A DNA stretch of 64,000 nucleotides from the IMG/VR virus record IMGVR_UViG_3300031251_000967, positions 1 through 64,000 of that record, one strand, 5' to 3'. A program made the position numbers and the translations under genes. The notes under the pieces were generated by a model. It did no database searches, was not told the DNA's origin, and was given only the letters and a program-made list of their open reading frames with translations. The first letter of the stretch is position 1. Each line of letters begins with the position of its first letter. This document shows positions 54,300 through 57,870 of the stretch, piece by piece. The stretch comes from a virus.

Positions 54300-55130
54300 C
54301 TAGACACCGCAGAATCCTCCGCAAGCGTTGTTGAACATGCTGAGCTGGTCGCGCTTCAGGTGCGGCGGCTTGGGGACGAACTTCACTTCGCTCAACGGCT
54401 TGCGGCTTTCGTGCAGGTACGGCACGGCGCGGAACTCCGTCGATTGGGCGTATGCGGCTTGGAGTTCGAGTTCCTTGGCGGCGGCGTCGGCACGCTCGGC
54501 CGGCGTAAGCTCAAGCCACGCGTCGTCGTCCTTGAAGGGGCAGAAGGTGCAGGCAGATCGCGGCGGCTCCGGATAGCCCCGCTTCTGCATCCAGGCGAAG
54601 CAGTCGGCGCGCGTCATGTCCTGCTCGATCAGCGGCCACCGAGTTTCAATCCAGTCCTTCCTACTAGGAGCCATACGAGATGCTTCGTCGGTGCTGATGC
54701 CGATCCACATCTCGACAAGCGCACCGTGCCTCTTCGTCACCCGCTTCATGCCAAGCAGTTCACGGCACTTGCGCGTGACTGGATCGATCTTAAAATCCTG
54801 CGTGCACTGGCGCTTGCCCAAGCCCTTCGCGAGGCCGTCAAGCGTATAAACGGGAATAGCTGTCTGGACGTATGTCCGTTGGCCGTCCCGTGTGCGTCGT
54901 ACGCGCGTTGCCGACTGCCAGAGATTGCCGCGCGATACCCGATATACCGGGAACGAAAGGACGCTCTCCAGCCAATCCAGATGGCGATACACCTTCTCCG
55001 GCTCGCCCTCAGTGTCTGAGAAGATGGCGCAATCCGGTTTCGGCCCGACCTCGCCATGTTCGGCCATCAAAGCGAGCGTCGTGCTTTGCACGCCCGCCCC
55101 GAGCGATATCGCCCGCAGCCTGACGCTCAT
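54300..55130 (-). CDS. PAPS-reductase-like PP-loop protein
   Basis: 276 residues. PP-loop SLGAGVQSTTLA at residues 9-20; later KRQCTQDFKIDPVTRKCREL, EMWIGISTDEASRMAPSRKD and a CTFCPF pair typical of phage phosphoadenosine-phosphosulfate reductase-like proteins. Such ATP-pyrophosphatase-fold proteins can act in sulfur or base modification. Adjacent to the methyltransferase gene; a joint DNA-modification role is possible but unproven. Confidence 0.8.
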   Translation of the reverse strand: MSVRLRAISLGAGVQSTTLALMAEHGEVGPKPDCAIFSDTEGEPEKVYRHLDWLESVLSFPVYRVSRGNLWQSATRVRRTRDGQRTYVQTAIPVYTLDGLAKGLGKRQCTQDFKIDPVTRKCRELLGMKRVTKRHGALVEMWIGISTDEASRMAPSRKDWIETRWPLIEQDMTRADCFAWMQKRGYPEPPRSACTFCPFKDDDAWLELTPAERADAAAKELELQAAYAQSTEFRAVPYLHESRKPLSEVKFVPKPPHLKRDQLSMFNNACGGFCGV

Positions 55131-55185
55131 GCCGTCCCCCGTCTTTTGCGATCGACGAGGACAAGGGTTTTCCTGGCAGGGGCCA

Positions 55186-56844
55186 TCAGAGCAAAGCCTC
55201 TTGCTGATCGCTGGAGAGCGATTGGAACAGGGGGGAGTCGAGACCTTGCATGCGGTCGAGACGGCGCTTGATATCGGCTACGTACTCGGCTTCCCGCTCG
55301 ATCAGGATCGCGTCGAAACCTTCCCGCATGCAGGCCGCGCCCGTGGTACCGGAGCCGGCGAAGGGATCAAGCACGGTGCCACCCGGCGGGGTGACGAGGC
55401 GCACGAGCCAGCGCATGAGCGCGATCGGCTTTACGGTCGGGTGCTTGCTGTCGCAGCGATCGTCGGCGTCGGCCTTGGCGGAGAAGAAGAAACGGGCGGC
55501 AGAGCCTGTTTCACTCTCAATGGCACCGATGGGCGATCCGGCCGCCGTACTGCCATAACCCGGCGCGCGCACCGTGCCGCCGCGGGTCCCGTGCGTCTGT
55601 CGCTCTCCGAACTGCGCGAAGGCTTCCAGCACCTCGTCAGAGCCGTCGTGGACGAGGTTAGCGGGCCAGCGGCCGAGCGCTTCGCCCGGTCGCTGCTCGG
55701 CAAAGCGTTCGGGAGTCGTGCGATCGGTAATCGTGTGACCGTATTCACCGGGCGTGCCCGAAGGCGCGTAGCCGCGGCGTGCGACGCTCGGGTTCTCGCC
55801 CGCCACCCGGCACGCATCGACGTTCAACGCCCCGGTGCCGTGCAACAGCACGTTCGCAGCAACGGTGCCGTCGAGAGGCTTACGGGCAAGGACGATCGGC
55901 TCCCAGGCGGGCTTTAGGGCGGTTCCTATTCCGTCAGGAACAATCGGTTTGCCGCACCTTCCGCAATCCGGCCATGCTCCGCCATCTTGTGGCTCCGGTT
56001 GTCCGGCCACAGTTCCAGATTGCTCGGATCGTTGTTCAGCGGCTTGTGATCCCCGTGGTGAACCACTTCCACCCGCAGCAACGGACGGCCGATCCGCTTC
56101 GCCATTACTAACCGATGTTCCATCACATAGCCGTCCGCACGCGCCATGCTGATGAACTCCGGCGGGCATCTGACATACCGAACCGAGACATAGTTTCCGT
56201 GTCTCTTCCGGTAGGTTACGCCGCCCTTCCAAGCCCAGTTGGCAGCACCCTTCGGCGGGGGCGGCGCATTGCAGTGCTTCAGCGGATGCGCCTTGTTCCG
56301 GCAGGCACGGGAACAATACCTGCCGCTGCCCGCTCGCAACTGATGAGGCCGCCGATACATCGGCGTCGTGCACAACACGCAAGTTGTATTCGGGCGACGG
56401 TTCGGGGTGCTCACAGTCGCAGATTTTACCATCTAACGCCTTGTTTATGCTATGACTTTTCGGAAATCCGGCACCATAGCACCAAGCCAATTGGTCACGG
56501 ATCTCGAAACCGGCATCCTCGATAGCGCAGGCGAGCCGGTGATAGGTGCGCGTGCCGCTGAAGGCGATCAGATGCGCGCCCGGCTTCAAGACGCGGTAGA
56601 CTTCACGCCACCAGTCAGGATCGAACGCGGTCTCCCCAGTGTCCCATTGCTGGCCCATGAATCCAGCCGATGCCCGCTTGTAGAGGCCGTCCCGGTCCTT
56701 GGCTGGCGCGCTGCCGGGCTTGCCGAAACGCTTCTGGATGCTGACGAGCGAGTACGGCGGATCTGTCACGCATGCGTCTATGCTGCCGTCTGCGAAAGTG
56801 CGCGCGACGTCGCGGCAATCGCCGTGCTCGACGCGAATGTTCAT
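55186..56844 (-). CDS. DNA methyltransferase with HNH gene nested in another frame
   Basis: 552 residues. The catalytic DPPY is at 28-31 (VTDPPYSLV) and the SAM-binding DPFAGSGTTG at about 493-502, an order fitting class-beta adenine/cytosine-N methyltransferases. SKHPTVKPIALMRWLVRL is also diagnostic. Residues ~141-303 are a Cys/Gly/Ser-rich stretch with no methyltransferase similarity, encoded where the out-of-frame HNH ORF lies. The frame stays open through it, joining SINKALDG to GTALKPAWEPIVLARKPLDG, normally a short step in this family. It probably protects phage DNA or regulates the cycle. Confidence 0.88.
   Translation of the reverse strand: MNIRVEHGDCRDVARTFADGSIDACVTDPPYSLVSIQKRFGKPGSAPAKDRDGLYKRASAGFMGQQWDTGETAFDPDWWREVYRVLKPGAHLIAFSGTRTYHRLACAIEDAGFEIRDQLAWCYGAGFPKSHSINKALDGKICDCEHPEPSPEYNLRVVHDADVSAASSVASGQRQVLFPCLPEQGASAEALQCAAPAEGCCQLGLEGRRNLPEETRKLCLGSVCQMPAGVHQHGACGRLCDGTSVSNGEADRPSVAAGGSGSPRGSQAAEQRSEQSGTVAGQPEPQDGGAWPDCGRCGKPIVPDGIGTALKPAWEPIVLARKPLDGTVAANVLLHGTGALNVDACRVAGENPSVARRGYAPSGTPGEYGHTITDRTTPERFAEQRPGEALGRWPANLVHDGSDEVLEAFAQFGERQTHGTRGGTVRAPGYGSTAAGSPIGAIESETGSAARFFFSAKADADDRCDSKHPTVKPIALMRWLVRLVTPPGGTVLDPFAGSGTTGAACMREGFDAILIEREAEYVADIKRRLDRMQGLDSPLFQSLSSDQQEALL
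55926..56432 (-). CDS. HNH homing endonuclease nested inside the methyltransferase gene
   Basis: 168 residues, same strand but another frame. An N-terminal zinc site (C18, C21, C40, C44: TTCVLCTTPM and GRYCSRACRNKAHP) precedes GAANWAWKGG, DGYVMEHRLVMAKRIGRPLL and the HNH core VVHHGDHKPLNNDPSNLELW (H125, H126, N133-N134), a classic phage homing endonuclease. Its ATG lies in the methyltransferase's GK codons and its TAG in the GIG codons, leaving no room for a group I intron. Expression would need internal initiation. Confidence 0.85.
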   Translation of the reverse strand: MVKSATVSTPNRRPNTTCVLCTTPMYRRPHQLRAGSGRYCSRACRNKAHPLKHCNAPPPPKGAANWAWKGGVTYRKRHGNYVSVRYVRCPPEFISMARADGYVMEHRLVMAKRIGRPLLRVEVVHHGDHKPLNNDPSNLELWPDNRSHKMAEHGRIAEGAANRLFLTE

Positions 56845-57317
56845 GTGAGCACCTGCGGCCCTGACATACGGATCTCAAATCCGTAAATTGCTTCGACGAC
56901 GGCGCGACGGAGACGAGACACTGAGTCGTCTATCCCCTTGTGCTCCTCGACCACGAACCGGCCGTTCTTTTCGCGGTAGGTGAAGTCGGCGGTGTAGACG
57001 GCCGTGCGACCGTTCGGATACCGCTCGGAGCGGATGACGACTTGGCGTTCGCCGATCTTCAGGACGAACCGGACTTGGCGGCTGAGGTGGGTGATCTGCC
57101 CTGCCCGCTCCATCAGCTTCAGTTCGCACCAGCGGTCGTACTCGGACTGGCTGTCGAAGCGCACGCCGTCCACGATGACGGGCTTGGCCTTCCACTTCGA
57201 GGGCAAGGGATCGCGCGCCGGCTTCTGTTGCGCGATCTGCTCCGCAAGCAGTTTGGCTGCTACCTGTTCGCGCGCGGCCGGGCCGAGGGAGAGGATGGAG
57301 AATGTGCGCTTCGACAC
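56841..57317 (-). CDS. DUF1064 nuclease-like protein
   Basis: 158 residues from GTG 57317. VIVDGVRFDSQSEYDRWCEL, ITHLSRQVRFVLKI, YTADFTYREKNGRFVVEEHK match DUF1064, which has the PD-(D/E)xK layout (D...E-x-K: ADFTY, VEEHKG). Likely a phage Holliday-junction or repair nuclease. ATG of the methyltransferase overlaps its stop. Confidence 0.78.
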   Translation of the reverse strand: MSKRTFSILSLGPAAREQVAAKLLAEQIAQQKPARDPLPSKWKAKPVIVDGVRFDSQSEYDRWCELKLMERAGQITHLSRQVRFVLKIGERQVVIRSERYPNGRTAVYTADFTYREKNGRFVVEEHKGIDDSVSRLRRAVVEAIYGFEIRMSGPQVLT

Positions 57318-57328
57318 GATGGATCGCC

Positions 57329-57565
57329 CTACTCCGCGGCCTCGCGCAGGGGCGCCCCGAAATACTGGCGGCGTCGGCGGGCTTTCTCTCGCCCGCCTTG
57401 GTGCGGCATGTATCTTGACGAACCGCGTACCGCGCGAAGCTTGCGGTCGCATGTGCCTGGATGGACCAGCGTCGGCCGCAAGCGCCAGTTCTCCCTGATG
57501 ATCGCGAAGGTGATGTGGCGATTGGTGGTGGCGAAGCCGCGGGCGAAAGGATTGCTCTTCCGCAT
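57329..57565 (-). CDS. Basic hypothetical phage protein
   Basis: 78 residues, Arg-rich (RKSNPFARGFATTNRHITFA, GGREKARRRRQYFGAP). ATG 57565 overlaps the GapR gene's stop. No family recognised. Confidence 0.55.
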   Translation of the reverse strand: MRKSNPFARGFATTNRHITFAIIRENWRLRPTLVHPGTCDRKLRAVRGSSRYMPHQGGREKARRRRQYFGAPLREAAE

Positions 57566-57870
57566 CACGCATCCTCCTGCTCATCGGAGGACAGATCCGG
57601 GATCATCCCCAGAGCCCGCTTGTAGACATCAAGAAGCGCTTCTTCTTCGTCGATTTCGTCGGGATCTTTGCCGCGAAGTGCTATAATGCGCTTCAGGATC
57701 TTGGTATCGAACCCGGAGCCTTTGGCCTCCGAGTAGACTTCCTTGATATCCTCGCTGAGCGCCTTCTTTTCCGCTTCAAGGCGTTCGATCCTCTCCACAA
57801 AGGAGCGGAGTTGATTTGCAGCGACGCCGTCCACGTCATTGCTCGGCAGGGAATCGCTTTGTTCGCTCAT
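57565..57870 (-). CDS. Phage-encoded GapR (DUF2312) homologue
   Basis: 101 residues. [60 protein letters not shown] and DVYKRALGM match the alphaproteobacterial nucleoid protein GapR almost end to end. Chromosomal GapR binds overtwisted AT-rich DNA and helps topoisomerases during replication. A phage copy may assist phage replication or alter host chromosome handling. Confidence 0.92.

Follow-up and report, generated by a model that had tools for sequence, protein, structure and literature searches.

An HNH endonuclease gene nested out of frame in a phage DNA methyltransferase gene as a probable splice-free homing element

Out-of-frame "hidden" HNH genes in the DNA methylases of mycobacteriophages have been described as the ShiLan domain (Gosselin 2023, PMC9957025; Arsenault 2025, PMC11855218). 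Neither a test of stop-codon avoidance nor an antisense or intein-housed case was found in the available part of PMC11855218. An out-of-frame HNH of the Applejack phage was noted in a 2025 announcement, and the annotated overlaps of Applejack (gp54/55), Molly (gp60/61), StellaBean (gp97/98), and Lamina13 (gp61/62) were taken for comparison (PMC12613952). A different arrangement, the genes-in-pieces of nrdA/mobE, is known from the Aeh1 phage (Friedrich 2007, as cited in PMC2988022).

The locus described here is located in a window of 64,000 nucleotides, which comprises positions 1 to 64,000 of the 75.5-kb IMG/VR virus record IMGVR_UViG_3300031251_000967; the host of this virus is likely an alphaproteobacterium. 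The features of the locus are listed in Table 1. The sequence-only reading had claimed that an HNH gene lies wholly inside a DNA methyltransferase (MTase) gene in another frame, and this is indeed the case: the HNH ORF is offset by 412 nt from the start of the MTase ORF and is thus read in +1 on the same strand. The MTase frame contains no stops throughout, as had also been claimed. The motifs on both sides of the insert, DPPY and DPFAGSGTT, are intact. The HNH start corresponds to MTase residue 138 and the HNH stop to residue 306, which abuts the first GTALKP codon (307). The HNH ORF fills the insert from just 5' of CxC to this codon, and its ends were correctly said to fall close to conserved MTase codons.

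Table 1. Positions of the features of the nested gene pair in the window
Feature	Position	Strand	Description
MTase ORF, host gene	55186-56844	(-)	beta-class DNA methyltransferase (N6_N4_Mtase), 552 aa, open through the insert
Nested HNH endonuclease ORF	55926-56432	(-)	168 aa, read in +1 with respect to the MTase
MTase catalytic motif IV DPPY	56752-56763	(-)	residues 28-31; (nearly) invariant in alignment A4
MTase motif GFPKS, conserved	56455-56469	(-)	residues 126-130; bounds the hypervariable loop upstream
Possible Shine-Dalgarno AAGG, weak	56439-56442	(-)	6 nt 5' of the HNH ATG
MTase-frame CxC	56413-56421	(-)	residues 142-144; invariant among 31 nested homologues; shares its DNA with the HNH N-terminus
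MTase residues 147-289	55978-56406	(-)	predicted to be disordered in the MTase frame, pLDDT ~30
HNH-frame zinc site C18, C21, C40, C44	56301-56381	(-)	4/4 invariant in 33 members
HNH core VVHHGDHKPLNND...SNLELWPDNRSH	55989-56066	(-)	HNH residues 123-148
MTase-frame CxxCG	55951-55965	(-)	residues 294-298; invariant among 31 nested homologues; shares its DNA with the HNH C-terminal tail
MTase motif GTALKP, invariant	55909-55926	(-)	residues 307-312; bounds the insert downstream
MTase AdoMet-binding motif I DPFAGSGTT	55342-55368	(-)	residues 493-501

Beside the MTase gene, the ORFs at 57565-57870 (-) and 56841-57584 (-) encode a GapR-like DNA-binding protein (PF10073, 5e-34) and a DUF1064 protein. 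The MTase itself matches Pfam N6_N4_Mtase (E=3.6e-28) and the PHROG "DNA methyltransferase" (5e-72). The order of its motifs, with DPPY ahead of DPFAGSGTT (FxGxG), is that of the beta class, and the AdoMet MTase fold is present. The core of the structure predicted with AF2 matches CcrM, RsrI, and M.BceJIV with a Foldseek probability of 1.00, and its pLDDT exceeds 90, as opposed to the disordered stretch in the middle of the protein.

When the same DNA is read in the HNH frame, the AF2 model has a mean pLDDT of 82, and that of the core is 91-97. The similarity of the window HNH to Pfam HNH_3 is a little under the curated cut-off (E=4e-5), and this profile matches 22 of the 33 members of the HNH family; among the PHROGs, HNH matches down to 1e-16 were found (phrog_20891, "HNH endonuclease"). 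A PDB sequence search with the HNH gave no match, and the top-ranked Foldseek match of its model, I-HmuI, is non-significant (E=1.6). The core residues V124, H126, N134, N138, L139, and H148 are invariant in the 33 members, and the window HNH possesses both the core and the zinc residues of an HNH homing endonuclease. Judging by these residues, the inner ORF encodes an HNH endonuclease that is presumably capable of cleavage.

The insert sits in a loop bounded by GFPKS and GTALKP; this loop is hypervariable even in MTases without an HNH, where it is mostly 7 to ~70 residues and sometimes ~140 residues long in frame. Such uninvaded alleles are common among the MTase homologues. None of the homologues fetched by MTase patterns carried the window HNH, and they served only as empty alleles. 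It was also considered that CxC and CxxCG might form a required zinc staple, or clasp, and both pairs are retained in split and antisense forms of the MTase described below. This proposal was rejected, as a class of naked-loop loci lacks both of them (L120, L222, L201, L238, L212).

A search with the window HNH only yielded seven loci, all of which (7/7) are nested in an MTase in the same register. A second search with a 13-member HNH alignment, which used no MTase information, resulted in 80 loci; among those re-scored with the HMM at E<1e-40, 44 of 44 are nested in the sense +1 register, each within an MTase ORF longer than 400 codons, so that nesting is the rule in this family. When the loci from the HNH searches and from the MTase-motif DNA patterns are taken together, the distinct nested cases comprise 44 in +1 and two (ShiLan and Mantra) in +2. 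The common +1 register was probably inherited rather than established in dozens of separate events. Two findings would have contradicted the dual coding, namely relatives with an MTase frame freely broken by stops and relatives keeping the 160-residue segment without an open HNH frame; neither was found within the window HNH family. Most of the sequences are metagenomic contigs. Among the nested cases are jumbo-phage contigs and one replicon of Cupriavidus necator UYPR2.512 (L143); the latter is the single real case in a pattern scan of genome contigs, in which the other 45 of 46 matches were not this MTase. A conserved Shine-Dalgarno sequence for the HNH was rejected, since only 39 of 86 relatives have its core 5' of a plausible start codon for the HNH.

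In the +1 register, a stop in the host frame arises only when an HNH codon NNT is followed by AA, AG, or GA. The number of such stops was compared with a null model in which synonymous codons are shuffled inside each HNH gene, preserving the protein and the codon usage. In the window alone, 6.4 host stops are expected and none is seen (P(0)=1.8e-4, 50,000 shuffles): T is the last base of 30 of the 168 HNH codons, yet of none of the 39 that precede AA, AG, or GA. The 66 non-redundant nested genes, which were classed as nested by virtue of their open frame, contain 0 host stops in 10,740 codons versus 455 expected. This way of classification cannot alone produce the absence of stops, because all 44 close relatives from the HNH-only search qualified. 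The control set of 13 free-standing HNH relatives, which are more distant HNHs, has 147 stops versus 155 expected.

The same avoidance was found in the Molly-type HNH at the same site (0 host stops versus 5.8 expected, P=3e-4) and in HNHs read from the opposite strand of the same loop (0 versus 7.0 in L246, 0 versus 2.7 in L092, and 0 versus 2.5 in L109). The antisense cases had been predicted to lie in the codon-aligned register, the sole antisense register without forced stops; this proved wrong for all those tested except L067. The avoidance is absent from two loci with a split MTase (12 stops versus 10.8 expected and 10 versus 11.4). Thus, stops are purged only where the host gene needs to be read through.

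The amino acid sequence of the insert in the MTase frame appears to be a different matter. The pairwise host-frame identity is 0.387 versus 0.334 after the synonymous shuffle, and a dummy frame in the MTase flank, used as a control, gives 0.263 versus 0.236. Selection on the host-frame sequence of the insert was therefore rejected as an explanation, the excess over the shuffle being merely small, and little amino acid selection can be assumed in this frame, with which the predicted disorder agrees. The host frame is selected for openness and hardly for sequence. Accordingly, the sequence-only reading stands in its claim that selection keeps both frames open, given the invariant catalytic and zinc residues of the HNH and the missing host stops. 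Its 160-residue Cys/Gly/Ser-rich stretch does exist, but most of it shows no clear amino acid selection; robust conservation is limited to the CxC and CxxCG edges.

Several other arrangements of HNH genes in this MTase can be noted. In the L083 (=L072; 3734-4312) and L122 (2869-3453) loci, a Molly-like HNH splits the MTase into two ORFs. The N part ends right after CxC and overlaps the HNH start. The C part, whose ATG start overlaps the HNH stop, comes with a Shine-Dalgarno-like AAAGGA or AAAGGGG. One Cys pair is retained in each of the MTase fragments. In the L067, L092, L109/L130, and L246 loci, the HNH is located on the opposite strand of the same loop, the MTase is open, and the CxC...CxxC borders are kept. 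Two MTases contain a second HNH: in L220 (3298-4008), it is nested in +1 in a later loop, and in L246, a second HNH-like reading lies antisense in the loop downstream of GTALKP.

At least 14 window-type HNHs are housed in a mini-intein of the same MTase, in +1 relative to the intein frame (L183, which is LR756508, a 484-kb uncultured phage; L224, L226-L237, L240, and L241). The intein site of these relatives, N^SGFPKS, is at the GFPKS motif; real MTase inteins show the pattern C[LI]..DTE...GN^SGFPKS and lie 15-20 codons upstream of the window insert. More distant HNHs (L243, L245, L247, L248, L250, L252-L261, L273, and L276) are antisense within the open frame of apparent inteins in terminase large subunit genes, where the inteins interrupt what reads as the Walker A region. 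The antisense set taken together has 5 host stops versus 40.7 expected. No account of out-of-frame or antisense intein endonucleases was found in the literature searched, which did not include the preprint on actinobacteriophage intein architecture (doi 10.1101/2025.01.02.630785).

Signs of mobility are also present. The HNH DNA of L124 and L131 is ~93% identical, whereas the identity of their flanks is well below this level, and L120 and L222 show a similar mosaic. On the HNH tree, naked-loop and intein-housed members are intermixed, although many forks are without resolution. In Oogway (L194) and L125, the Molly-type HNH was lost via two different in-frame deletions, and in L116, most of a window-type HNH is gone in the same manner; the MTase is open in all three. 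These deletions differ from one another, and scars of the HNH gene remain. Homing is suggested by the patchy presence, the mosaic identity, and the intact catalytic residues. At the level of sequence comparison, all this fits a selfish element whose loss is tolerated only when the MTase is still readable.

We consider it highly likely that the window insert is a splice-free, dual-coding homing element in a hypervariable MTase loop. An HNH homing gene of the free-standing type would have entered a phage beta-class MTase gene at a hypervariable surface loop of the protein. The MTase would be translated straight through, as the comparative evidence and the structural model suggest, and the insert would form a long disordered loop in the protein; translation of the HNH would presumably begin at an internal start codon in +1. 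Because each NNT codon has a synonymous NNC, the host frame can stay open through silent changes of the HNH, and selection for a working MTase drives these changes, as the stop statistics show. The HNH may cut uninvaded MTase alleles and spread via repair; where it was lost, this happened by in-frame deletion, leaving the MTase open. With common empty alleles, no Rfam match, no intein motif in the window insert, and no host stops, the earlier proposal of a homing gene that arrived without an intron or intein, its host gene thereby becoming dual-coding, is borne out, homing itself being the inferred part.

Among other explanations, the HNH might have been domesticated, the nesting ensuring co-expression; its service to the phage might lie in modification, packaging, or the exclusion of rivals, for instance. 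The near-universal conservation of the catalytic residues and the tight linkage with the MTase are compatible with this. However, the patchy presence, mosaic identity, viable deletion derivatives, and exchange among naked-loop, intein-housed, and antisense contexts fit a mobile element, so domestication seems unlikely.

Much less probable is the removal of the insert at the RNA level, by a group I/II intron or otherwise, with the MTase frame open by accident. It is generally known that HNH genes are often intron-borne, and this is also discussed in PMC11855218. An Rfam scan over 55000-57000 gave no match at E<=1 and no group I/II ribozyme core, and the HNH ORF nearly fills the insert. Moreover, host stops would be neutral in a spliced insert, and the absence of all 455 expected is a strong argument against it. 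A cryptic intein, in which the MTase-frame insert excises itself as protein, can be considered scarcely probable. Relatives of the window HNH do reside in real inteins of the same MTase, a short distance upstream; however, the window insert has no N- or C-terminal intein motif and no Asn before Ser, Thr, or Cys at its end, it is predicted to be disordered, and its sequence is almost unconstrained. The remark from the sequence alone that the flanks have no room for ribozyme or intein motifs agrees with this.

Translational bypassing or frameshifting across the insert would also be conceivable, since phage genes with an endonuclease close by are known to use it, as in T4 gene 60 and mobile bypassing elements. 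For the window, we assign it very little probability, since stops in the skipped host frame would again be neutral and free to gather, yet none have gathered. In addition, the broken-frame loci, with stops at the chance level and with the N-part stop overlapping the HNH start and the HNH stop overlapping the C-part start, point to restart rather than to a hop. Finally, chance, whereby GC-rich DNA (~61% GC at the locus, and hence long spurious ORFs nearby) has left a long alternative ORF and the open MTase frame has no meaning, is refuted by the avoidance of stops in the window alone and family-wide.

It seems fairly probable that such splice-free dual coding is a general lifestyle of a large clade of phage HNH homing endonucleases. 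Its members would be located out of frame in a host-protein loop or a mini-intein, and distant relatives antisense in terminase inteins or methylase loops, sometimes two per host gene, with synonymous codons keeping the host frame open each time. If this is true, homing genes would comprise a third class in addition to the intron-borne and intein-borne ones, in which the endonuclease moves between naked loops and inteins. The locus shows how a selfish gene may be housed in a protein gene without splicing machinery, by silent codon choice and a tolerated disordered loop. Annotation software usually discards long gene overlaps in DNA phages. The HNH family offers dozens of statistically testable overlaps, natural controls in the form of split genes and deletion scars, and a link to inteins, which makes the survival of homing genes without splicing directly testable.

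When comparing the window with known systems, the closest similarity is with ShiLan. Both have an out-of-frame HNH in a homologous phage MTase, an open host frame, and a patchy distribution, and in neither has an intron or intein been found. However, the ShiLan insert is located just downstream of GTALKP in the +2 register, whereas the window insert is upstream of it in +1, so the window element is of the ShiLan kind but is not the ShiLan element. The ShiLan HNH, described in mycobacteriophages, also falls outside the 64-row clade of the window HNH. Molly, StellaBean, and Lamina13 share with the window the GFPKS-GTALKP loop, the +1 register, the CxC...CxxCG borders, and the open MTase; Applejack was compared by its annotation and the paper. 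The HNHs of these Actinobacteria phages are of another type and align poorly with the window HNH.

According to PMC2988022, mobE of Aeh1 is, like the window gene, an HNH homing gene in a critical phage gene that functions without splicing; nrdA is split into two polypeptides, whereas the window MTase is a single open frame. The split MTases of L083 and L122 are a direct parallel of these genes-in-pieces. Inteins with homing endonuclease domains resemble the window in that the endonuclease is nested in a host protein and, for the window presumably, spread by homing. Canonical intein endonucleases, however, are in frame and are removed by protein splicing, while the window insert has no intein, and the HNH of the intein-housed relatives is read in a different frame from the mini-intein. 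Thus, an out-of-frame hidden HNH in a phage methylase is an already published kind of element (PMC11855218). What is new is another site, frame, HNH clade, and phage group, nesting as a family-wide rule, the wide environmental spread, and the statistics for host-frame selection with natural controls, as well as the in-frame deletion scars, split-gene alternatives, antisense nested HNHs, double-HNH MTases, and relatives located out of frame inside inteins.
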